A DNA stretch of 64,000 nucleotides from an uncultured Eubacteriales bacterium (GTDB lineage: Bacteria > Bacillota > Clostridia > Christensenellales > Aristaeellaceae), in NCBI GenBank assembly GCA_900315315.1, contig OMYT01000024.1, positions 1 through 64,000 of the forward strand, given 5' to 3'. A program made the position numbers and the translations under genes. Positions within the stretch are counted from its first letter, which is position 1; each line of letters opens with the position of its first letter. The notes below the pieces were generated by a model that saw only the letters and a list, made by a program, of their open reading frames with translations, was not told the DNA's origin and did no database searches. Positions 5,683-40,884 of the stretch are shown here, in pieces.

Positions 5683-5946
5683 TTAGTGGCTATATTGTTC
5701 CTCGGATTCCTCAATGATGATGACGTTGTTGGCTCCGATGACTACTTTTCGTCCTTCCATGGTGTGCAATGTGACTGTCCCGGATGCGGATGCAAACCAG
5801 CGATCAACTTCAAGTGTGTCCATGGATCCGTCAAAGTACCGGATCTTTGCCGTTGTGATACAGTTTCCTTCAGTGTTTGTATCACTGCAGCTTGTCAGCA
5901 ATGCCAACGCAATTGCCAGGACTAGCAGAACAAGCAATTTCTTCAC
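5683..5946 (-). CDS. small phage lipoprotein
   Basis: 87 aa, GTG start at 5946 right after the previous stop. The signal peptide ends in the lipobox LLTSC, so Cys20 would be lipidated. The mature part is one small beta domain (TAKIRYFDGSMDTLEVDRWF to VVIGANNVIIIEE). An exported lipoprotein beside tail genes could act in superinfection exclusion or lysis (spanin-like); neither is shown. Confidence 0.7.
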   Translation of the reverse strand: MKKLLVLLVLAIALALLTSCSDTNTEGNCITTAKIRYFDGSMDTLEVDRWFASASGTVTLHTMEGRKVVIGANNVIIIEESEEQYSH

Positions 5947-6045
5947 CTAATCATCTCCTCTGTTTGCAGCAATTAATGCGGCAATCCAGAATCCTAATAG
6001 CGTACCGGTCATTACTGCCGGAATCAGTCCCCACCATGGAATCAT
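5947..6045 (-). CDS. 32-aa membrane peptide
   Basis: MIPWWGLIPAVMTGTLLGFW then IAALIAANRGDD: one hydrophobic helix with a charged tail. ATGA overlap with the upstream gene (6042-6045), and the TAG is followed directly by the lipoprotein GTG. A holin-like role is possible on size and topology but unproven. Confidence 0.6.
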   Translation of the reverse strand: MIPWWGLIPAVMTGTLLGFWIAALIAANRGDD

Positions 6046-28912: not shown

Positions 28913-31639
28913 CTAAAATGGTCTCCGAATGACCTCAACCTTTCCCCCACTCATCGTCCGGATCATCTCAGATAACTGCGCTAGCCCATCCGGCGCGTCA
29001 TCATGCGGCACCTTCCCAGACCGCGTATATGTACACAACTCCTTTATAAACGCCCCATACTCATCGCCTGGCTTGTACAGCGACCTATCTAGAAAGTAAA
29101 AATGTTTCAAAATAAAATCACTCTCTACCTCAATCCGCGTCGTCTTTCTCGCCAGGGACCGCTTCAGCCGGATGCTCGTCTTCCCGCCTTGCTTCTTCAT
29201 CAGATCCTCAACGTCCCGGGCATAATACTCTCCGGCACTGTTGCTTTCAAACTGCGCAAGCCCAACCTTATGCTTCACAAGCTTCATCGCACACTCCGGC
29301 TTTGTGTGCTCAGGCGTCCCATTATTGAACACCACATCCGCAATCATCACCTCATCCCCATAAACATACCCAATCGGCATGCTCACACTGTCACTGCCCT
29401 TTTCAGCTGTATCGCACGCCGCCATGATCGCATCAGGCGCTCTCTCCGGTAACTGAAAAAACCGATTCAGCTGGTCCTCCGGAAACAGCCGCCCCTTCGA
29501 TTCAAAAGGATGCTGCTGAAACTGGCTCTCCCACTGCATCTCCGTCACCAGTTCCCGCTCATGCTGATAATACGCACTCGTAAACATCTTCTTCCCATTC
29601 AACTCAATCTCAAAATTGCTCTTGTCATCCTCTCCCAACGCCGGAATCTCCAGTACCTTCGTCCGCCAACCCATCTCCGGCGCGACTTCCTGCAGCCTCC
29701 CTATCGGATCGTACAAACTGTACCTCGTACCCTGCGCTACAATCGGGCATCCTTCCAGCCGCCGGCCCAGGATGTCGCCGCGCACCTTGTCCCACAGGAA
29801 ATCTAGCCGGTCCCGGTTCACCGCTTCTTCCTCATTCTTAACCGTATCATCCAGGTAAATCAGCCCGTCTGGCGTGGCTTCCGTAGATCCTGTGATCTGT
29901 CCGTCAATCGGCCTGCACGTTACCGTCGCAAACCGCTTCCGCTCCTTCAAGTTAAACGTCTTATCATCCGCGTTCGTACTTACCAGCTTCGCTTCCGGAA
30001 AAATATCATAGTACGCATACTTGTCCTTTTGCTGCAACACCTCCAGCATCCCCGCATAGAAACTCTTTACCAGCATATCACCAGCTCCAGAACATACCGA
30101 CGACCCATTTGGCGCCTGCCCCGCACGAAACAATACAAACCACGTGCCAACCGTTGTATTGTGCGTCGGAATCATGCTGTCACCGATAATATATTGCTTT
30201 GACTCGTCCGCAACGGAAATGCACACCATCTCTTTATATTCGTCTGTTGGCTCAATTGAATCAATAAAATGATGCAGCTTCGTCATTTTTGAATTACAAG
30301 CTTTGGCTTTCCGATGAATATAGAACGGATTGATTGTGTTCAGAAATTTGCAGAATACCCTGAAATTTAAACGGGTTTCTTTTCTTTCTCCGTTAACTTT
30401 ATAACTTCCAATCCGGCTTGTTATTCTGCATCTTCCGCCGAGACTCCTGACCAGGAAACAAACGTCTTTCGCAAGTTGTTCGGATGTAGTGGAATACTCG
30501 CACCCATTGCTGACCGCACTTCCATCCGAATCAAACAAACCACGCATTAATTCTATCCTGTCATCAATCGGCGCGTACAAATATTCTTTCGGAATATGCT
30601 TTTCGTATGCATATTTCTCCCACAGTCCGTATTTCACCAGTGCCTGTCCAGTATATGACTTGACAGGATATCCGTGCTCGTCCGTTCTTTTCTCTTTGCT
30701 GGCAACGGCATAGTCGTACTTCCCAACGTTCTTTACAATGTCTGGCAGTTCATGCGTAACACGGGAAACAATCAGTTCGTCACCCATTGAAATGCGGATG
30801 CTGCCACCTGTAAAGCCACCTTCCGCAATAAGTACGCCCATCGTGTATGGCTTGATTAAAAGTTCTCCGAACGGCTCAAACTGCACTGGCTGAACATAGT
30901 CAACAGAATAGTTCCTATGTCTGTCATGGCCCCTGTACATAGTGCCATTCAACATATCTTCCGTTGAAATTACACGATGCTTCCCGCTTGCACGGTCTTC
31001 TTCTGTTTGCACGGTCCACAAATGATCCTTGCAACACTCAACCGTTGTAAACTCGCGACACTTGCCCGTTTCACCAAACGTGACCTTGTACACCTGTTTC
31101 TTCCCCTGCGGGTATACGCCAGTCACAGTTGTGCTGTTTCCGCTAACAGATATGACTTGATCACCTACAGACAGATCGCCTATCCGAACAAACCCGTTCG
31201 GAGTCAGCACTTTCGTGTCTACAGGCACAGCCTTCCCTGTCCGCTTCGGCTGGCTCACTGTCAGCAAGTCCAGTTTGCCATCCGATACCTCCTGAAACGC
31301 CTCCACAATCGGCCGCAATACCTTCCGCCTCGGAACGTAAAACTTGTCCGCTGGCTTTCTATTCCTCTCCAGGTACAGCATAAACGCATCAAAATCTACC
31401 GGCGCGTCCACCAGCAAACTCTTGTAATACGTGTCATTCAGTTCCTCTGCATCCTTTAGCTTCAGATTCTCAGCCCGCATCCTCGCAGAGATCCTTCTCC
31501 GCAACTCCTTGTTCACTTCTCGCAGTTCCGTCTTCCCACGCTGTATCCCGTCATACACCACAGCAACAGCATCCATATACACCCTGGGATCGTCCGGATG
31601 CATCGCCAGATTCCGCTCTATCAGTTCACGCTCCGTCAT
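28913..31639 (-). CDS. terL: terminase large subunit interrupted by an intein
   Basis: 908 aa with ATG at 31639 (ATGA overlap with the upstream gene; AAGGGTGA 8 bases before). Terminase parts are residues 1-136 and 495-908. Removal of the intein restores SQPKRTGK-TTVGTWF, the Walker A loop. Walker B is GLIYLDDTV; the nuclease domain shows AACDTAEKGSDS, AQFESNSAGE and HDDAPDGLAQL. It translocates DNA into the head and cuts it. The small subunit is 9 kb away at 40885-41448 rather than adjacent. Confidence 0.92.
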   Translation of the reverse strand: MTERELIERNLAMHPDDPRVYMDAVAVVYDGIQRGKTELREVNKELRRRISARMRAENLKLKDAEELNDTYYKSLLVDAPVDFDAFMLYLERNRKPADKFYVPRRKVLRPIVEAFQEVSDGKLDLLTVSQPKRTGKAVPVDTKVLTPNGFVRIGDLSVGDQVISVSGNSTTVTGVYPQGKKQVYKVTFGETGKCREFTTVECCKDHLWTVQTEEDRASGKHRVISTEDMLNGTMYRGHDRHRNYSVDYVQPVQFEPFGELLIKPYTMGVLIAEGGFTGGSIRISMGDELIVSRVTHELPDIVKNVGKYDYAVASKEKRTDEHGYPVKSYTGQALVKYGLWEKYAYEKHIPKEYLYAPIDDRIELMRGLFDSDGSAVSNGCEYSTTSEQLAKDVCFLVRSLGGRCRITSRIGSYKVNGERKETRLNFRVFCKFLNTINPFYIHRKAKACNSKMTKLHHFIDSIEPTDEYKEMVCISVADESKQYIIGDSMIPTHNTTVGTWFVLFRAGQAPNGSSVCSGAGDMLVKSFYAGMLEVLQQKDKYAYYDIFPEAKLVSTNADDKTFNLKERKRFATVTCRPIDGQITGSTEATPDGLIYLDDTVKNEEEAVNRDRLDFLWDKVRGDILGRRLEGCPIVAQGTRYSLYDPIGRLQEVAPEMGWRTKVLEIPALGEDDKSNFEIELNGKKMFTSAYYQHERELVTEMQWESQFQQHPFESKGRLFPEDQLNRFFQLPERAPDAIMAACDTAEKGSDSVSMPIGYVYGDEVMIADVVFNNGTPEHTKPECAMKLVKHKVGLAQFESNSAGEYYARDVEDLMKKQGGKTSIRLKRSLARKTTRIEVESDFILKHFYFLDRSLYKPGDEYGAFIKELCTYTRSGKVPHDDAPDGLAQLSEMIRTMSGGKVEVIRRPF
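30158..31231 (-). mobile_element. Ala1 intein with LAGLIDADG endonuclease in terL
   Basis: 358 codons. Starts AVPVDTKVLTPNGFVRIGDL after Lys and ends SMIPTHN before Thr, so it is an Ala-start intein with a Thr +1 residue. Hint motifs: VGDQVISV, FTTVECCKDHLW, KQYIIGDSMIPTHN. Two endonuclease motifs, YTMGVLIAEGGF and LMRGLFDSDGSA, keep acidic residues, so homing may be active. Inserted within the Walker A codons, the most conserved target in the gene. Confidence 0.92.
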
Positions 31640-31875
31640 GCTCTCATCACCCTTCTCCGCTGATTCCATGCCTCCAGTGCTTCATCTGGATCATGACGCA
31701 GCCCGCCTTCAGCGCCACATCCGCCAGCGTCATAATCACAAATCACGCAATACTGATCTCTGAATCCGTCCTGTCCGCCAATAACCCGCAGGTATGGATT
31801 ATCATTTCCACAAAACGGACACTTCTTTGGGTGAAACTTTTCAACAACCCACTTGTTAAACTCCCTGCTAGTCAT
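31636..31875 (-). CDS. Lar-like zinc protein (restriction alleviation family)
   Basis: 79 aa, ATG at 31875 with GGGGAGG upstream. KKCPFCGNDNPYLRVIGG, CVICDYDAGGCGA and EALEAWNQRR match the Lar family pattern (two CxxC and an EAxxAWN helix). Lar relieves type I restriction in Rac; here this is by family only. Coupled to terL by ATGA. Confidence 0.75.
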   Translation of the reverse strand: MTSREFNKWVVEKFHPKKCPFCGNDNPYLRVIGGQDGFRDQYCVICDYDAGGCGAEGGLRHDPDEALEAWNQRRRVMRA

Positions 31876-34365: not shown

Positions 34366-34392
34366 TTTCCCGGATCTGGAACAAAAAACAAC

Positions 34393-34790
34393 AGGCAGGC
34401 AGCAGGCAGGAGGCGGCAGGAGGCAGGCAGCAGGCAGGCAGGAGGCGGCAGGAGGCAGGCAGGAGGCGGCAGGAGGCAGCAGGAGGCAGCAGGAGGCAGC
34501 AGCAGGCAGCAGCAGACAGCAGCAGGCGGCAGGAGGCAGCTGCAGGCAGCAGCAGGCAGCAGCAGGCAGCAGCAGGCAGCAGCAGGCAGCAGGAGGCAGC
34601 AGGAGGCAGCTGCAGGCAGCAGCAGGCAGCAGTAGGCAGCAGCAGGCGGCAGGAGGCAGCTGCAGGCAGCAGCAGGCAGCAGCAGGCAGCAGCAGGCAGC
34701 AGGAGGCAGCAGGAGGCAGCAGGAGGCAGCTGCAGGCAGCAGCAGGCAGCAGTAGGCAGCAGCAGGCGGCAGGAGGCAGCTGGAGGCAGC
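34393..34790. repeat. decamer array with 120-bp higher-order period
   Basis: Units of the form AGCAGGCAGC, AGGAGGCAGC, TGCAGGCAGC, AGTAGGCAGC and AGCAGGCGGC follow at exact 10-base steps from about 34481 to 34790. Blocks beginning at 34501, 34621 and 34741 repeat the same unit order, a 120-bp (12-unit) super-repeat. The first ~90 bases are less regular. Open frames on both strands give only Gln/Gly/Arg or Leu/Pro/Cys runs without start signals, so it is read as non-coding. Confidence 0.85.
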
Positions 34791-34908
34791 AAAAAAGAAT
34801 ATTTTTTTGATAAAAAATCAAAATTATTTTTCCCGTTTTCATCGAAAAACGGCTGGAAGCGTTGATTTTACTGCGTTTTAACCATTTTAAAAAATATCAA
34901 ATAAACTG

Positions 34909-34937
34909 TTGACATTATCAATAAAACATGATAGACT
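34909..34937 (+). promoter_or_regulatory. promoter of the plus module
   Basis: TTGACA (34909-34914), 17-base spacer, TAGACT (34932-34937). Confidence 0.75.
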
Positions 34938-34944
34938 ATAACCG

Positions 34945-35297
34945 TCGAAAGGAACACAGCAAGCCGAGCCGGTTAACCCGGCGGGCGGGGGGGAAGCCCC
35001 CGCGAGCGTACCTTGAAAATTGAACAGCAAACGCGGGAAAGTGTACAGGGCCCGGCGCGTTTAGAGTCGACGCGCATAAACGGGAGCCGCGACACAGGCC
35101 GGATCATAGGCCCTATGCAGGGCCGGCGGGCATTCTTGCCCTGCTGATGTAACAATCTCGAACGACTGTACAAACGCCGCGAAAATCCTGCTTTTTTCCT
35201 CCGCCTGCCATGCTCTGCATGGCAGGCGTCCCGGGAATATGCGCAGCATGGATCCGGGACGCCTGCCAAGGGCGAACAATGAAAGGTGGATAAGAAA
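34945..35297 (+). promoter_or_regulatory. structured 350-nt leader with alternative hairpins
   Basis: GCCTGCCATGC/GCATGGCAGGC (35203-35227, 11 bp) and GGCAGGCGTCCCGG/CCGGGACGCCTGCC (35221-35267, 14 bp) share GGCAGGC (35221-35227), so they exclude each other. Farther up, GCCGG/CCGGC and GGGGG/CCCCC hairpins precede CCTTGAAAATTGAACAGC (35011-35028), like the rRNA-leader boxA region of Firmicutes. Looks like an attenuation or antitermination leader; no open frame. Confidence 0.65.
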
Positions 35298-35990
35298 ATG
35301 AAGCATTCAGTTGAAAGCATCAAAAAGGCCATGGACAACCTGAAAACAGCGATTGATAAGTACATGAAGACGCAATACACGGAATTGAGATTGCATATAT
35401 CCGCCGGAAATAAAAAGATCGGCCGCGTATACAATTTCAGCATGGCGCCCGGAATCACTTGCCCTAACTGTGCAGGTTGTCTCCCGTATTGTTACGACGT
35501 GAAGGCTGTTCTTCAGTATAAGAACGTCGTAAACGCGCGGGCGGAAAATACTGCCATGATGTTCATGAACATGGACGACACGTTTGCACAGATTGACGCC
35601 TTTATCACGCACACACACCGCAGGAACAAGTTTTTCAGGTGGCACGTGTCCGGCGACATTATCAATTATGAGTACCTTTGCAATATGGTATGGATCGCAA
35701 AAAGGCATCCAGACTGGACATTCTGGACGTACACAAAAGCGTATACCATCGTCAACCGGTTCATGGAAATCAATGGCGCGGATGCAATCCCGGCGAACCT
35801 GTCAATCATGTTTAGCGTATGGAATGGCATGGACTGCCCGAACCCGTTCCAGATGCCCACTTTTACATGCATTCAGGAAGGCATGGAACCCGCTCCTGGT
35901 GAATGGAAATGCCCCGGGAATTGTGATATCTGCCTCCGCTCCGGCCATGGCTGCCCGTTCCGTGAATCTGCTCACGTGAATGAGCACTGA
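35298..35990 (+). CDS. GP88-family Cys-rich protein
   Basis: 230 aa, ATG at 35298 with AAAGGTGG upstream. Cys pattern CPNCAGCLPYCYD near residue 55, RWHVSGDI and YTKAY in the middle, and CPGNCDICLRSGHGCPF at the end match the GP88 (L5 gp88-like) family, thought to bind a metal or Fe-S centre. Function unproven. First gene of the plus module. Confidence 0.75.
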   Translation: MKHSVESIKKAMDNLKTAIDKYMKTQYTELRLHISAGNKKIGRVYNFSMAPGITCPNCAGCLPYCYDVKAVLQYKNVVNARAENTAMMFMNMDDTFAQIDAFITHTHRRNKFFRWHVSGDIINYEYLCNMVWIAKRHPDWTFWTYTKAYTIVNRFMEINGADAIPANLSIMFSVWNGMDCPNPFQMPTFTCIQEGMEPAPGEWKCPGNCDICLRSGHGCPFRESAHVNEH

Positions 35991-36086
35991 CCCGCTCCGG
36001 CCGCTCCGGCGGCCGCTCCGGCTCTGCACCCGCTCCGGCGGATGCAGACCCGGGGCCCGACCCCGAAAATAAAGGAGGAAAAAAAC
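35991..36086 (+). promoter_or_regulatory. two-stem spacer element 1
   Basis: Stem I: CTGCA (36024-36028)/TGCAG (36043-36047) over CCGC/GCGG. Stem II: CGGGG (36051-36055)/CCCCG (36061-36065), loop CCCGA, then AAAGGAGG. Confidence 0.7.
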
Positions 36087-36359
36087 ATGGAAAACCGCGA
36101 GATGATCGAAAAAATCAGCGAGCTTCAGGAGCTGAAGCGCATGCGCGACGACCTAGATGCAGCTATTGAATCCGCTTCGGATGCAATCAAAGCCGCAATG
36201 GGCGCCACTGAATCCGCCGTATACGGACCGTACAAGGTCACCTATAGGGAAGTGACCAGCACCCGCCTGGATACAACCGGAATCAAGAAGGCTTTCCCGG
36301 CGGAGGCTCTCGCTCCGTACCTGAAGACCAGTACCAGCCGCCCACTGAAGATCACCTAA
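36087..36359 (+). CDS. stand-alone YqaJ C-terminal-like protein
   Basis: 90 aa, ATG with AAAGGAGG upstream. Helical start (ISELQELKRMRDDLDAAIES) then VYGPYKVTYREVTSTRLDTT and LKTSTSRPLKIT. This is the pattern found at the C-terminus of YqaJ/lambda-exo-type phage nucleases, here without the nuclease domain. It may be a DNA-contact accessory. Confidence 0.6.
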   Translation: MENREMIEKISELQELKRMRDDLDAAIESASDAIKAAMGATESAVYGPYKVTYREVTSTRLDTTGIKKAFPAEALAPYLKTSTSRPLKIT

Positions 36360-36457
36360 CAGGACCAGCCCGCTCCGGCGGGCCTCCTGACCTGCACCCG
36401 CTCCGGCGGATGTAGGTCAGGGGCTACGGCCCCAACAAAAAGCAGGAGGACAGAACA
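36360..36457 (+). promoter_or_regulatory. two-stem spacer element 2
   Basis: Stem I: CCTGACCT (36386-36393)/AGGTCAGG (36414-36421). Stem II: GGGGC/GCCCC (36420-36433), loop TACG. Ribosome site GCAGGAGG follows. Confidence 0.7.
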
Positions 36458-36628
36458 ATGGAAGATTGGACCTATGAGGACCGTCTGAGCTTCACCGACG
36501 CGCTCCGGTTCCTTCCGGTGGATGAGATCGCAGACAATGCGGAACTGTCCCGGCTGGACGAACGCGCAGAAGTGTACGCAACGCTGCAGGATGCCGGCAT
36601 GCTCCGGTACCGGCTGCAGATTGCCTGA
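36458..36628 (+). CDS. 56-aa protein
   Basis: MEDWTYEDRLSFTDALRFLP to MLRYRLQIA. ATG at 36458 after GCAGGAGG. Acidic, one predicted helix-turn segment (DERAEVYATLQDAG). Unknown family; has the same leader element as its neighbours. Confidence 0.65.
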   Translation: MEDWTYEDRLSFTDALRFLPVDEIADNAELSRLDERAEVYATLQDAGMLRYRLQIA

Positions 36629-36702
36629 CATTGACAGACAGCACCCGGACCCGCTCCGGATGCTGTAGTCAGGGCCAGGCCCTGAAGAAGGAGGAAAAAA
36701 GA
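36629..36702 (+). promoter_or_regulatory. two-stem spacer element 3
   Basis: Stem I: TGAC/GTCA (36632-36671) over ACAGCA/TGCTGT. Stem II: CAGGGC (36670-36675)/GCCCTG (36679-36684), loop CAG. AAGGAGG follows. Confidence 0.75.
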
Positions 36703-37035
36703 ATGAGAGCACCAATCAAAGATCTCCCGCTCTCTGGGATTGTAAGAGTGTTCGACACTATATCAGAAACCGTTATGTATTCCGGAACAGAGGATCTAAT
36801 CTCGCTCAAGATCGGCCTCCAGATCCCGAAATTGATATATAGCGTGAATGATATCACATATATCGATATCGAGTATCAAAAAGTGTACTACGATGCAGAG
36901 GCTGAATGGTACTACTATGAAAGCTTCTTCCGCTCAATCTATGACGAAGAAACAGAAGAATACCGGTCTTCTCAAACATTCGAACAATTCATGCAATACC
37001 AACTAAAATGCGAACCAATCTGGGAAATAACCTGA
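36703..37035 (+). CDS. small acidic Tyr-rich protein
   Basis: 110 aa, start after AAGGAGG. Beta-like first half (YSVNDITYIDIEYQKVYYDA), then EAEWYYYESFFRSIYDEETE. Highly acidic and aromatic, which is common among inhibitor-type phage proteins; no family recognised. Confidence 0.65.
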   Translation: MRAPIKDLPLSGIVRVFDTISETVMYSGTEDLISLKIGLQIPKLIYSVNDITYIDIEYQKVYYDAEAEWYYYESFFRSIYDEETEEYRSSQTFEQFMQYQLKCEPIWEIT

Positions 37036-37097
37036 CCTCGACACACGGGACCCGCTCTGGCGGATCTCGCAGTCGGTGCCAGGCACCGAAAAAAGCA
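37036..37097 (+). promoter_or_regulatory. two-stem spacer element 4
   Basis: Stem I: CGAC (37039-37042)/GTCG (37072-37075). Stem II: CGGTGC (37074-37079)/GCACCG (37083-37088), loop CAG; then AAAAAAGCAGG, with no gene directly following: the FtsK promoter intervenes. Confidence 0.7.
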
Positions 37098-37164
37098 GGA
37101 ATAGGTGTTGACAGATATCACAATACGTGATATCCTATCCTTGTGATAGGTGCCTACCTATTCC
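37098..37164 (+). promoter_or_regulatory. FtsK promoter with nested palindromes
   Basis: TTGACA (37108-37113), 17 bases, TATCCT (37131-37136). GATATCAC/GTGATATC (37114-37134) lies across the spacer. An outer pair GGAATAGGT (37098-37106)/ACCTATTCC (37156-37164) encloses all. ATAGGT/ACCTAT also makes a hairpin before the ribosome site. Confidence 0.75.
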
Positions 37165-37181
37165 AAGAAGGAGGGAAAAAC

Positions 37182-37934
37182 ATGTTTCGTTCGGTTCCGA
37201 AAGCTTACCGGACGCCTGCAGGAAAGTTCTACAGGCCATTCCTGAGACTGGCTGATCGGCCGCACCTGCTGATCGCAGGGGCCACCGGCTCCGGGAAATC
37301 CGTAGCATTGAACGGGATTATCCACTCGCTCCTGATGACGAAGGCCCCGTCCGAATGCCGGTTCGTCCTGATCGACCCCAAGAAGGTCGAGCTTGTCCAG
37401 TACGCAGACGTTCCTCACACCGTCCGGTACGCATCCGAGCACGCCGAGATCGTCGATGCTCTGAACTGGGCCGCGCAGGAAACTGACCGCAGGTTCGCCC
37501 TGATGCAGAAGAACAGGATCAGAGAGTACAACGGATCGCATATCTACGTCATCATCGACGAGCTCGCTGATCTGATGGTTTCGCTGAAGAAGCAGACACT
37601 CCCCAACCTCCAACATCTCGCCCAGGTTGGCCGAGCCGCTCGTGTCCATGTGATCGCATGCAGCCAGAACATCCTGGCCGAAACGATCCCGACCCCGCTC
37701 AAGTGCAACTTCTCCACGATCCTGGGCCTCCGCACAGCGAACGCGCAGCAATCCAGATTCCTGATCTCAGCGACCGGATGCGAGCAACTCCCTGATCCGA
37801 AGCGTGAAGGCGTCGGTTACGGATACCTTCGCGACGGAGCCGATCTCGAGCGGCTGCTGATCTACAAGTACCCGAGCAGCGAGATCGACAGAGCGATTGA
37901 CTGGTGGACATCCTCCGCCTGCATCGCCGGCTAA
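37182..37934 (+). CDS. FtsK/SpoIIIE-type ATPase
   Basis: 250 aa, only the motor domain. Walker A IAGATGSGKSVALNG (~32-46), FVLIDPKKVELVQY, Walker B YVIIDELADLMV, and QVGRAARVHVIACSQ. No membrane or gamma domain. Could move DNA or resolve concatemers, or interfere with host segregation; a conjugation-like role has no partners here. Has its own promoter and operator. Confidence 0.85.
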   Translation: MFRSVPKAYRTPAGKFYRPFLRLADRPHLLIAGATGSGKSVALNGIIHSLLMTKAPSECRFVLIDPKKVELVQYADVPHTVRYASEHAEIVDALNWAAQETDRRFALMQKNRIREYNGSHIYVIIDELADLMVSLKKQTLPNLQHLAQVGRAARVHVIACSQNILAETIPTPLKCNFSTILGLRTANAQQSRFLISATGCEQLPDPKREGVGYGYLRDGADLERLLIYKYPSSEIDRAIDWWTSSACIAG

Positions 37935-38013
37935 CCCAAGTGACATTGACAGACGGCACCCGGTCATCACGGATGCCGTAGTCAGTGCCATCGCACTGAA
38001 GAAGGAGGAAAAT
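37935..38013 (+). promoter_or_regulatory. two-stem spacer element 5
   Basis: Stem I: TGAC/GTCA (37947-37984) over ACGGCA/TGCCGT. Stem II: CAGTGC (37983-37988)/GCACTG (37993-37998), loop CATC. AAGGAGG follows. Confidence 0.75.
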
Positions 38014-38277
38014 ATGAGCAAGACAACCTACACCGACCTGTTCGAAGACGAGGTGGCGGAGGTTCTCCGGGATGCAACCCGCTCCGGTGGAATCATCCTG
38101 GAAGGCTGCAACGAATGGTATCCGGCCCATATGATCAATGAGGACGGGATCTACTCCTCCGGTTCCGGGATGTTCACACAGTACATCAACGGGACAAGAT
38201 GCGGATACGTCAGCGCAAGCTACCTCATCAGCCTGCTGGCCCACAAGCCATTCACGGTCGTAGCAAACCGTTCCTGA
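38014..38277 (+). CDS. small protein, plus module
   Basis: 87 aa. MSKTTYTDLFEDEVAEVLRD, later GNEW-type GCNEWYPAHMINEDGIYSSG and YISASYL-like YVSASYLISLLAHKPF. Compact mixed fold; not recognised. Same leader element as neighbours. Confidence 0.6.
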   Translation: MSKTTYTDLFEDEVAEVLRDATRSGGIILEGCNEWYPAHMINEDGIYSSGSGMFTQYINGTRCGYVSASYLISLLAHKPFTVVANRS

Positions 38278-38347
38278 CCCTGACACTCGGTACCTCCGCC
38301 GGAGATCCCGCAGTCAGCGCCAGACGCTGAAAAAAGGAGGAAAAAAC
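38278..38347 (+). promoter_or_regulatory. two-stem spacer element 6
   Basis: Stem I: CTGAC (38280-38284)/GTCAG (38313-38317) over CTCC/GGAG. Stem II: CAGCG (38315-38319)/CGCTG (38325-38329), loop CCAGA. AAAAAAGGAGG follows. Confidence 0.75.
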
Positions 38348-38647
38348 ATGAAGATCTACTGCGTAACGTTCGACGTCCAGTCCTTCGCTTTCCGGGAAAC
38401 AAAGGATTATATCTTCCATTGTATGGCTAATACCGCGAAGGAAGCCAAGGACCTCTGTAAAGCAGAATGGCCAAAGCTGTTCAACGCTCCGAACGCAAAG
38501 GTACCGCATCAGTTCCACCTCTACGCCCGCGCTTCCAAGATCCAGGACGACGAGCTTCTCGGATGCAGGACCTGGTTCGGCGCTCCGATCCGTGAAAAAG
38601 ACTGCTTCGGCTTCATCTGTACCGCAGCCAGACGGTGGCAGAAGTGA
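38348..38647 (+). CDS. small protein, plus module
   Basis: 99 aa. MKIYCVTFDVQSFAFRETKD, KEAKDLCKAEWPKLFNAPNA and C-terminal CFGFICTAARRWQK. A mixed alpha/beta layout resembling small phage DUFs; function unknown. Confidence 0.6.
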   Translation: MKIYCVTFDVQSFAFRETKDYIFHCMANTAKEAKDLCKAEWPKLFNAPNAKVPHQFHLYARASKIQDDELLGCRTWFGAPIREKDCFGFICTAARRWQK

Positions 38648-38732
38648 CCGGTAATCGCTGACATTGGCACTCGGGGCCTCCGCTGGAGACCCCGCCGCCA
38701 GCGCCAGCTGGAGAAAAAAGGAGGAAGAAGTT
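38648..38732 (+). promoter_or_regulatory. two-stem spacer element 7
   Basis: Stem I: TGGC/GCCA (38665-38700) over GGGG/CCCC and CTCC/GGAG. Stem II: CCAGC (38698-38702)/GCTGG (38707-38711), loop GCCA. AAAAAAGGAGG follows. Confidence 0.75.
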
Positions 38733-39047
38733 ATGGAAGGCATCAAGATCGAGACCAAGACAAACGGTTATGAAGCCGAGGCGCTTCAGGAAATGATCGA
38801 AAGATTTAACAATGTCGCCGCAGACATGTTTCCAGGTTGCACAGTCTATCATTTCTACTATGGAAATCGCTGCGATATGGCGGATATTGAAATCGGCTCA
38901 GGAAACTACGCTCACTTCAATATCTACCCCAACCGAGTAAGCCTGTGCGGCTACACCGGCGAAAACGAGGACGTTAGAAAGTGGGAGCATATGACCCACA
39001 ACGATGAACTGTACGACGGGAAACTGATTGAGCTTGCTGGTTTCTGA
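38733..39047 (+). CDS. small acidic protein, plus module
   Basis: 104 aa. MEGIKIETKTNGYEAEALQE, then CTVYHFYYGNRCDMADIEIG and VRKWEHMTHNDELYDGK. Acidic, aromatic; no family recognised. Confidence 0.6.
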   Translation: MEGIKIETKTNGYEAEALQEMIERFNNVAADMFPGCTVYHFYYGNRCDMADIEIGSGNYAHFNIYPNRVSLCGYTGENEDVRKWEHMTHNDELYDGKLIELAGF

Positions 39048-39119
39048 CATTGGCACATGGGAGCCGGGCCCCGGCTCTCATAGCCAGCGCCAGACGCTGG
39101 GGAAAAAGGAGGAGATTAA
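39048..39119 (+). promoter_or_regulatory. two-stem spacer element 8
   Basis: Stem I: TGGC/GCCA (39051-39086) over GAGCCGG/CCGGCTC. Stem II: CAGCG (39085-39089)/CGCTG (39095-39099), loop CCAGA. AAAAAGGAGG follows. Confidence 0.75.
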
Positions 39120-39338
39120 ATGAGGTACAACAACAAGTTCTTCAGCACCGAGGCGGAGGCTAAAGCTTTCCGTAAAGAGCATGGCGGCGTCCTGCTCCAC
39201 TGTACGCCTCGAAGCCACTCAAGCACCAAGATGGAGTTCCACGCTGAGATGATGGTAGCTATGGACGCAAGAGGAGAACAGGTAGATCCAGAAAAGACTC
39301 CATATTGCGTAGCCTGGAACGAAGGAACACCAGACTGA
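39120..39338 (+). CDS. small protein, plus module
   Basis: 72 aa. MRYNNKFFSTEAEAKAFRKE, HGGVLLHCTPRSHSSTKMEF and TPYCVAWNEGTPD. Small alpha/beta protein of the type often encoded in Clostridia phage accessory loci; unknown role. Confidence 0.6.
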   Translation: MRYNNKFFSTEAEAKAFRKEHGGVLLHCTPRSHSSTKMEFHAEMMVAMDARGEQVDPEKTPYCVAWNEGTPD

Positions 39339-39405
39339 TCCCGGCACCCGGGAGCCGCTCCGGCGGCTCTCGTAGCCGGCACCAGACCGGAGAAGGAGGA
39401 TCATC
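39339..39405 (+). promoter_or_regulatory. two-stem spacer element 9
   Basis: Stem I: CCGGC (39341-39345)/GCCGG (39375-39379) over GAGCCGC/GCGGCTC. Stem II: CCGG (39376-39379)/CCGG (39387-39390), loop CACCAGA. AAGGAGG follows. Confidence 0.7.
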
Positions 39406-39597
39406 ATGAAACGCTACTTCCGCGATTTCTACGGATGCACAGCAAGCATCCGCACCCACCGCAACGGGCAGTCCGACCTGGTCATTCGCACCGGACAGGG
39501 CGGGCTGGTCCTCCGCCGGACCTACAACTCCGAGCGCGGTGCCCGCATTGCCCTGGGTCAGTACAGCGACCGCTGGACCGAAACGACGAGGAGGTGA
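39406..39597 (+). CDS. small basic protein, plus module
   Basis: 63 aa, Arg-rich (MKRYFRDFYGCTASIRTHRN, LVLRRTYNSERGARIALGQY). A beta-hairpin plus helix arrangement could bind nucleic acid. The next gene starts 4 bases after its stop, using GAGGAGGTG inside this frame. Confidence 0.6.
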   Translation: MKRYFRDFYGCTASIRTHRNGQSDLVIRTGQGGLVLRRTYNSERGARIALGQYSDRWTETTRR

Positions 39598-39601
39598 AAA
39601 G

Positions 39602-39931
39602 ATGGACCCGTTCGAAGATGTCCGGCGCGAGTACGTCAACCGCTACCGTGAAACCCATGGCATTCTCCTGGCAAACGACTACGACTCGTTCGTAAATAAG
39701 ATGTTGGACGCCATCCAGATCACGATGAACGAATCCGACGTCGGCCAAGAGATCATCGATGAAGCACTCGGTGTTGCGCTCGCTCGGAATCTCACTCCGG
39801 AACAATGGAGCCTGCAGAAAGCAAACCTCATGATTGTTTTGTTCTGCATGGCGCTGGATGCCTGCCCGTTCCTGAAACACGAGATGGCGCATCACCTGTA
39901 CAACGAGCTCAGAAAGGAGGCGAACGATTGA
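39602..39931 (+). CDS. small helical protein, plus module
   Basis: 109 aa. MDPFEDVRREYVNRYRETHG, ITMNESDVGQEIIDEALGVA and FCMALDACPFLKHEMAHHLY. All helical; no leader element of its own, translated with the previous gene. Confidence 0.6.
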   Translation: MDPFEDVRREYVNRYRETHGILLANDYDSFVNKMLDAIQITMNESDVGQEIIDEALGVALARNLTPEQWSLQKANLMIVLFCMALDACPFLKHEMAHHLYNELRKEAND

Positions 39932-39990
39932 CCGGATCCGCTCCAGGAGATTATAATAAGTCTCCACCCATCGCACGAGGAGGACGCACA

Positions 39991-40362
39991 ATGCCAAAGA
40001 GCAGCACCCTGGCGCAGCGCAAGTACGACGCTGCAAACTGTAAGTTCTATCACCTGAAGTTTAACCTACGCACCGACGCGGACGTCATTGCAAAGCTCGA
40101 ATCCGTCCGTTCAAAACAAGACTACATCCGGAAACTTATCCGGAAAGATAATGAGGAGGAAGCAACTATGGAAAAGACGCTGTATACTGCCATCATCGAG
40201 AACGACGAAGGTATCCACCTGATCCGGAAGGCCATTGCTGATCCGACCGCTGAGTACGAAGACTTCGAATACGCCATGCAGAACAAGGCGGAGGAGCTCG
40301 GCGGCGAACTGTACTGCATCTACGATCAGGCCGACATCGTCGAGGACATCACCCTGGATTAA
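39991..40362 (+). CDS. RHH-type regulator fused to a second small domain
   Basis: 123 aa. Residues 1-52 match ribbon-helix-helix phage proteins: KFYHLKFNLRTDADVIAKLE then VRSKQDYIRKLIRKD. Residues 60-123 (MEKTLYTAIIENDEGIHLIR and on) look like a separate protein. The linker codons still hold a good ribosome site, GAGGAGG before ATG at 40168, so both the fusion and the short second product may be made. Last gene of the plus module. Confidence 0.65.
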   Translation: MPKSSTLAQRKYDAANCKFYHLKFNLRTDADVIAKLESVRSKQDYIRKLIRKDNEEEATMEKTLYTAIIENDEGIHLIRKAIADPTAEYEDFEYAMQNKAEELGGELYCIYDQADIVEDITLD

Positions 40363-40375
40363 TGGATCGTTCACT

Positions 40376-40411
40376 ACCCGCTCCGGCTTCGGCCGGACGG
40401 GCTTTTTTTTT
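40376..40411 (+). terminator. terminator of the plus module
   Basis: CCCGCTCCGGC / GCCGGACGGG around a TTCG loop, followed by eight T (to 40411). Confidence 0.85.
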
Positions 40412-40884
40412 GCCCATTTTTATATGCAATTCCGGTCAGACCACGCATGCATATATGCACCCAATCCACCCAGGAAAATGAATATCTTCAATCTTTTATG
40501 CGCATTAATATTCAAAATGGATTATATAGTACCTCTCCTATTGAGGTACACAATATATAGTGTTTCAACTATTCGCTAAACATACGTTTTACGAATAGTT
40601 GTGCAGCATGGCCATAATCCGCTCCGCATTTTCGTGCAGGATCTGCATTGTTTCATCCGGTTAAGCAGAATCCTATGCTTCGTCTGCTTTTCCGGAATGA
40701 GTAGCCCATACACAGCTCCTTCCCTTTCGGACCAGCTGCCTTCCAAAACAAATTCATCACACAAGAGAGCAACCTGTCACGTCGTTAAGGTAATATATAT
40801 ATAATATTCGTACATAATATATATTATATAGATTATAGATATATATAAAACAAGCGTAGAACTATATCTACGCCTGCATGTATG
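40412..40884. other. AT-rich convergent gap with palindromes
   Basis: No supported gene. GTACCTC/GAGGTAC (40529-40549) and AACTATTCG/CGAATAGTT (40567-40600) are perfect inverted repeats; 40785-40855 is alternating A/T with stems. Fragments of a decayed frame near 40600-40760 lack a consistent reading frame. Could terminate the minus operon or be a second replication site. Confidence 0.5.

Follow-up and report, generated by a model that had tools for sequence, protein, structure and literature searches.

A candidate family of two-state RNA elements at the gene junctions of related phages

Sequences repeated in many copies within one phage, before genes of different families and just 5' of the start, have been described in the mycobacteriophages of cluster K, under the names SAS and ESAS. 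Both are restricted to the non-structural half of the genome and are of unknown function; SAS is a fixed 13-bp sequence, GGGATAGGAGCCC, at the ribosome-binding site, while ESAS contains an inverted repeat with an imperfect 17-bp consensus, one per subcluster (PMC3203893). Among the literature found, they are the closest published system to the element described here, which lies at gene junctions within a 64,000-nt stretch of DNA (the window; contig OMYT01000024.1, from an uncultured Eubacteriales bacterium). Like SAS and ESAS, the junction element is multicopy, precedes the starts of varied gene families and is confined to one region; unlike their sequence consensus, its arms vary with pairing kept (ESAS is set apart by its description), and alternative pairing and a TGA at a fixed distance distinguish it from both as they are described (PMC3203893). 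Even when 2 mismatches are allowed, SAS has no match in the window, and literature searches of open-licence papers found no description of this junction element.

Other known systems share single traits with it. In phage T7, RNase III sites reportedly lie between early genes, as repeated hairpins within one transcript; alternative pairing and stop-codon spacing are not known to be part of them. The attC sites of integron gene cassettes keep structure more than sequence, with small exchangeable genes between the copies; their core triplets are absent, by eye, from the junction elements, which stand at a fixed distance from the start codon. In translational coupling by RNA unfolding or attenuation, the ribosome on the upstream gene alters which hairpin can form, as is proposed here; in the unfolding cases reviewed the hairpin hides the next start, whereas neither fold of the junction element does so consistently (PMC12548453).

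The initial annotation had reported nine spacers between small plus-strand genes (e1 to e9, Table 1) as folding alike, with a stem I around a hairpin followed by a stem II. The eight stem II sequences and the closing pairs of stem I that it named are all present; seven spacers, e3 to e9, fit one model, and e1 and e2 form a looser variant, type B. In e3 to e9 the order begins with YTGAY, and after two further nt comes X (YGRY). A 3-nt linker, whose first base is A, leads to the hairpin P2, which is of standard size (a 5-bp stem, a mostly-C.A position, a 3-4-bp stem, the loop and the 3' halves). Two nt, mostly YA, separate P2 from Y (GYCR); three nt later come CCA and Z (YGR), usually followed by AGAA and a ribosome-binding site. 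X and Y pair in P1 (stem I), which closes P2; Y and Z close the hairpin P3 (stem II), which adjoins the next ribosome-binding site. Y may pair with upstream X or with downstream Z, and X, Y and Z all covary. The competition of the two stems for common bases is a feature that the initial annotation had not described: one strand serves stem I as its 3' half and stem II as its 5' half, and three Y bases are common to P1 and P3, so that full stem I and full stem II are mutually exclusive. Spacers e3 to e9 and the viral copies described below almost certainly constitute one RNA family with a conserved fold, and this family looks like a set of cis-acting, two-state elements at gene junctions.

Viral loci (L, numbered) were collected with the FtsK-like protein of the window; the best 80 of 210 were used, and L005 and L019 were inspected by eye. 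A covariance model, R1, was built from 22 copies on a shorter alignment (A2), since in short copies the full-length alignment (A1) put the 3' strand of stem II in the wrong place. P2 is the sole structure in R1, so that the pairing of P1 and P3 is unfitted by it, and the model does not extend to the 3' strand of P3. Scanning the window and 94 viral loci produced 67 matches at E up to 1; the three weakest were left out, and the other 64, all at 24 bits or more, include repeats from the same contig (e.g. L024, L025, L405, L415). They correspond to 55 distinct cores, reduced to 54 by removal of L016:2034 as misaligned. Two controls were scanned. Eighty genomic FtsK loci gave 4 R1 matches, the best at 25.5 bits. 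The second control comprised 239 of the 240 loci (L163-L402) among the matches listed by two loose scans for the X, Y, CCAG sequence pattern, L192, a piece of the L005 contig, being excluded; none scored above 23.1 bits, and they were accordingly taken as chance matches. Two host-genus loci scanned alongside did match R1, as expected, and tighter patterns yielded useful loci, L421 among them. Scores above 25.5 bits separate 63 matches from the controls, in most cases by a wide margin; the remaining match, L015, with 24.4 bits, falls under the best control. The family has no named counterpart in Rfam 15, as had been supposed: no hit reached the gathering score in the whole window, and the 4 hits found at E up to 5 in 34800-40500 are all far under it, 3 of them on the opposite strand.

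Covariation was evaluated on alignment A4 (59 matches, 56 distinct), where 14 pairs of P1, P2 and the C.A position are named. Paired cells amount to 92.7%, versus 68.1% in shuffles, and the covariation score is 0.665 versus 0.225 (0/500 shuffles reach either value), falling to 0.143 or less with the partners slid. Coarser measures give a weaker separation: 13 of the 14 pairs changed on both sides, versus 10.3 in shuffles (6/500), and further pair types number 29 versus 25.6 (34/500). Stem II covaries as well, though its 3' strand is outside R1. When partners were swapped between copies, in a statistic that, like those on A4, ignores the relatedness of the copies, the mean number of P1 pairs decreased from 3.82 to 3.32 (all four are present in 47 of 55 copies) and the mean P3 helix from 5.62 to 3.96; 0/20,000 permutations reached the P1 or the P3 value. 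With P1, P2 and P3 all covarying across phage contigs, the earlier claim that the fold is selected is borne out.

Copies lying before homologous downstream genes in different phages, which need not be orthologous themselves, were compared for 13 of 17 copy pairs: 44 pair cells had changed on both sides and were still paired, 111 were unchanged, 3 had changed on one side and were still paired, and 8 were broken by one-sided and 3 by two-sided change. As an example, e9 and the L005 copy before a homologous gene differ in two compensated pairs. On the gene strand, G.U and A.C cells number 34 and 8 without column 20, and 35 and 42 with it; as the balance reverses, strand is not settled by this count. 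The claim is carried by covariation rather than by folding energy. In 6 of the 9 spacers (z -2.5 to -5.3) no more than 1 of 200 shuffles equals the natural sequence in folding, and single-sequence folding is weak evidence for the other three, e4, e6 and e7 (z -1.56, -1.22 and -0.74, with 15, 29 and 42 of 200 shuffles as good).

Some unpaired positions are also kept, namely A at column 12 (51 of 56 rows) and CC at columns 76-77 (54 and 56 of 56). Of the 56 rows, 34 have C.A at the mismatch position, 21 have a Watson-Crick pair there and one has a wobble. As a side observation, 54 of the 56 rows have no Watson-Crick pair at one or both of columns 17/64 (mostly G.U) and 20/61 (C.A); the two faults tend not to occur together (Fisher p 6e-6, relatedness ignored), and P2 is almost never perfect.

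The X/Y/Z sets of the 54 copies are CGGC/GCCG/CGG in 17, TGAC/GTCA/TGA in 12, TGGC/GCCA/TGG in 8, CGAC/GTCG/CGA in 4 and others in 13, and a T as the shared base goes with a longer P3. P3, scored with free choice of position, is short in one copy (L013:1975), and the one scored for L421:10512 is probably spurious, given the promoter-like sequence that lies directly 3'. In terms of sequence, the copies have what characterizes alternative-pairing (switch-type) RNA, one segment with two conserved, mutually exclusive partners. The computed energies of the two states are also close, P1 being better by more than 0.5 kcal/mol in 32 of 54 copies and P3 in 19 (median 1.3). The two states are probably a selected feature.

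The position of the element between two genes is equally regular. X starts exactly 3 nt after TGA, with zero gaps between the TGA position and X in 56/56 rows; at this position T is found in 53 rows and GA in all 56. GGA replaces TGA in L024:1746, L009:3039 and L009:3969, where the X, Y, Z pairing is kept. The TGA is the true stop of the upstream gene in 41 of 54 copies. When TGA occupies the A site, a ribosome reaches about 12 nt past the T (toeprint distance), so that X and the linker would lie under the terminating ribosome, with P2 free. Masking X and the linker, which forbids P1 by construction, raises the mean P3 probability from 0.34 to 0.90. On the other side, P3 ends 14-22 nt 5' of the called start in 42 of 48 copies, the rest of the 54 having no called start or a P3 below 4 bp; this distance is about that of the edge of an initiating ribosome. 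From the two spacings, P2 and P3 would fit between two ribosomes.

A mechanism may be proposed on this basis. The ribosome stopping at TGA would cover X and the 3-nt linker and not P2; with X covered, P1 would open and P3 form, whereas in the absence of the ribosome P1 and P3 would exchange. The next start would be left open in both states, while the element would block the onward run of the terminated ribosome; initiation of the next gene would thereby be separated from termination of the previous one, this output being the least certain step. That the terminating ribosome is the trigger, and separation of the two genes the output, is offered tentatively, as a suggestion that falls somewhat short of an even chance. 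The broader picture of a ribosome-gated junction RNA, one interchangeable two-state connector placed between many unrelated accessory genes of related phages, in which Y would be handed from X to Z at each ribosome stop and neighbours could be swapped without retuning of translation, is doubtful as a whole. If the switch reading is right, the element would represent an undescribed RNA family with a built-in switch, variable in sequence and conserved in fold, of which one phage record holds up to 10 copies; it would reveal a way for phages to combine foreign small genes in one operon, each staying readable, and would provide a ready-made part for operon building.

Several observations, besides the relatedness ignored in partner swapping, weigh against the proposed ribosome-driven exchange. 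P1 is broken in 7 of 54 copies (by A.C mismatches in five), and P3 is kept in those copies. The energy balance of the two states stands without a null model. The real stop lies 5-49 nt 5' of the TGA position in 12 of 54 copies, in frame in 4, and no upstream stop was found in one; within the window, the stop of the FtsK-like gene is 9 nt 5' of the TGA of e5, in frame, and the true stop is 14 nt 5' of the TGA of e7, in a different frame. The element is kept before the FtsK gene in four phages despite an intervening promoter-like sequence, and P3 seems lost in the L421 copy before this gene. Opening of the start region (-13 to +14) is predicted to cost about the same in the two folds (medians 5.68 and 5.30 kcal/mol, 48 copies), and single copies differ both ways, 21 and 13 of them by more than 0.5 kcal/mol. 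A test for a simple insulator was negative: start opening with foreign upstream tails varies equally with the element and without it (medians 1.32 and 1.14 kcal/mol, p 0.67).

Two functions were rejected. The translational operator suggested earlier, hiding the ribosome-binding site, does not agree with the predicted opening energies, as neither fold consistently hides the site. The sole plus-strand site in 34800-40500 resembling an intrinsic terminator is at 40382, outside the elements. Compared with other starts of the same phages, those behind the element are slightly more open (6.54 versus 7.82 kcal/mol, p 0.014; 40 element junctions and 45 sampled element-free ones).

The best rival to a ribosome-driven switch is RNA processing or stability, possible though unlikely: P1/P2 would be cut or would block decay, and after a cut the freed Y would form P3, capping the 5' end of the downstream message. 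The fixed short distance of P3 from the start codon and the imperfection kept in P2 agree with this, as does the persistence of the element 3' of an upstream gene and 5' of the promoter-like sequence that precedes ftsK, a place from which it can act on the upstream message alone; processing leaves the constant TGA-X spacing unexplained, and the stem is short for RNase III. It is rather improbable that the element is an operator bound by a phage or host protein, which would read the C.A mismatch, the ANN/YA loop and the CCA loop and set the translation of the genes together. Such a protein would account for the strongly kept unpaired positions, but not for the rows in which the mismatch is replaced by a Watson-Crick or wobble pair, and a bound hairpin requires no second competing partner.

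Gene order bears on a role at the DNA level, as a recombination linker or cassette boundary for the exchange of accessory genes. Grouping the 50 called downstream genes at E 1e-4 gives 38 groups, 30 with a single member and 8 with 2-4. Homologous neighbours are found upstream in 9 copy pairs, downstream in 17 and on both sides in 1, so that a shared gene usually has a different neighbour across the element (1 of the 25 copy pairs with a homologue on either side is homologous on both). Neighbour order is kept in 2/174 comparisons of element junctions versus 36/791 of element-free ones, with rough gene calls, 40 of 53 elements placed at a called junction and comparisons that are not independent. 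Although these figures suit a DNA joint, element-free junctions are also poorly kept, which points to a mosaic region rather than proving a cassette system, and orientation to the gene, TGA spacing and start spacing all fit an RNA; a DNA joint is quite unlikely. The median gap is 76.5 nt at element junctions and 14 nt at the others. Very improbable, finally, is maintenance of the palindrome without selection, by template switching in replication keeping the hairpin arms alike. The arms do change jointly between phages, but the C.A mismatch stays through these changes, as do the asymmetric loop and the CCA loop, whereas template switching would erase a mismatch, and the X-Y-Z triple would require simultaneous copying of two different arms.

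As far as seen, the element associates with phages rather than with the host. Copies were found in 16 of 20 whole viral records and, in the four richest (10, 7, 7 and 4 copies), lie within one stretch of 3.5-5.6 kb. The genome to which the window belongs has 7 copies, all on this contig; copies occur in 3 of 308 genomes of the same family, the other two being of the same genus, and in 1 of 391 genomes of a class sample, the one with the window. Weak copies may be missed in these counts, because part of the candidates were scored (150/2745 in the own genome and 15-19 per genome in the large sets, where filters were stricter).

Table 1. Positions of the junction elements and of two module genes in the window.
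Feature	Position	Strand	Evidence and description
Gp88-family gene, first in module, 5' of e1	35286..35990	+	PF17338, E 1.1e-27
e1, type B variant	36015..36065 (about)	+	Sequence and folds; C.A-mismatch hairpin TCTGCA/TGCAGA; outer stem GCTCCGG/CCGGGGC overlaps small hairpin CGGGG/CCCCG, which precedes AGGAGG
e2, type B variant	36387..36433 (about)	+	Sequence and folds; C.A-mismatch hairpin CTGACCTGCA/TGTAGGTCAG; second hairpin GGGGC-TACG-GCCCC, 5' of AGGAGG
e3	36626..36685	+	R1 58.8 bits; TGA, X TGAC 36632-36635, hairpin P2, Y GTCA 36668-36671, P3 36669-36685
e4	37033..37089	+	R1 65.1 bits; TGA, X CGAC, Y GTCG, P3 end CACCGA
FtsK/SpoIIIE-like gene within module	37182..37934	+	PF01580, E 3.4e-35 (frame from 37143)
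e5	37941..37999	+	R1 57.2 bits; TGA, X TGAC, Y GTCA, P3 end GCACTGA
e6	38275..38330	+	R1 60.1 bits; TGA, X TGAC, Y GTCA, P3 TCAGCG/CGCTGA
e7	38659..38711	+	R1 61.6 bits; TGA, X TGGC, Y GCCA, P3 CCAGC/GCTGG
e8	39045..39100	+	R1 67.5 bits; TGA, X TGGC, Y GCCA, P3 CCAGCG/CGCTGG
e9	39336..39390	+	R1 61.9 bits; TGA, X CGGC, Y GCCG, P3 CCGG/CCGG

The type B spacers have in common with e3 to e9 the C.A-mismatch hairpin and a small hairpin that precedes the ribosome-binding site; neither e1 nor e2 has the TGA or the ANN/YA internal loop, and R1 gives no match to either at E up to 1. Similar spacers are present in L005, L019 and L421, two in each, and in all eight, compared by eye, the C.A position is kept and the stems change in step. 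The gene 3' of e1 has homologues in L019 and L421. GC-rich hairpins 5' of the ribosome-binding site, with no model match, were also seen at gene starts of L010 (1282, 1662), L017 (1674, 2835) and L021 (1682, 3176).

The succession of element and gene start reported earlier does not apply to e4, which is followed by a promoter-like TTGAC sequence (37108-37136), with the ATG of the FtsK-like gene about 90 nt on. Repeats of the AATAGGT/ACCTATT type flank this sequence (37100-37165), and a similar arrangement is found in several phages (L005, about 5919-5985; L019, about 5755-5810). In L008 the element is directly 5' of the FtsK gene.

Portal, major head, terminase, tape measure and primase families were detected in the window, which is therefore that of a tailed phage. 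Its FtsK-like gene, also matching phrog_1358 (E 2.4e-51), is identical to the copy in L003, an IMG/VR record of 65,253 bases. The plus-strand module (35286-40362) comprises the Gp88-family gene, the FtsK-like gene and small genes; 3 of 10 module genes tested have a clear Pfam or PHROG match. Searching with the module DNA found no phage among phage records and, among plasmid records, 4 plasmids matching the FtsK gene only. The 9-mer CCGCTCCGG occurs 11 times in 35936-40386, versus 0.36 expected; its sites include two genes and the hairpin near 40382 that resembles a terminator. Directly 5' of the module, about 40 tandem copies of a 10-bp unit, CAGGCAGCAG, with a 60-bp higher order, occupy 34392-34791. 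The large terminase open frame (918 aa; 28913-31669, minus strand) shows helicase-loader (126-281) and primase (107-390) profile matches, perhaps reflecting an inserted domain.

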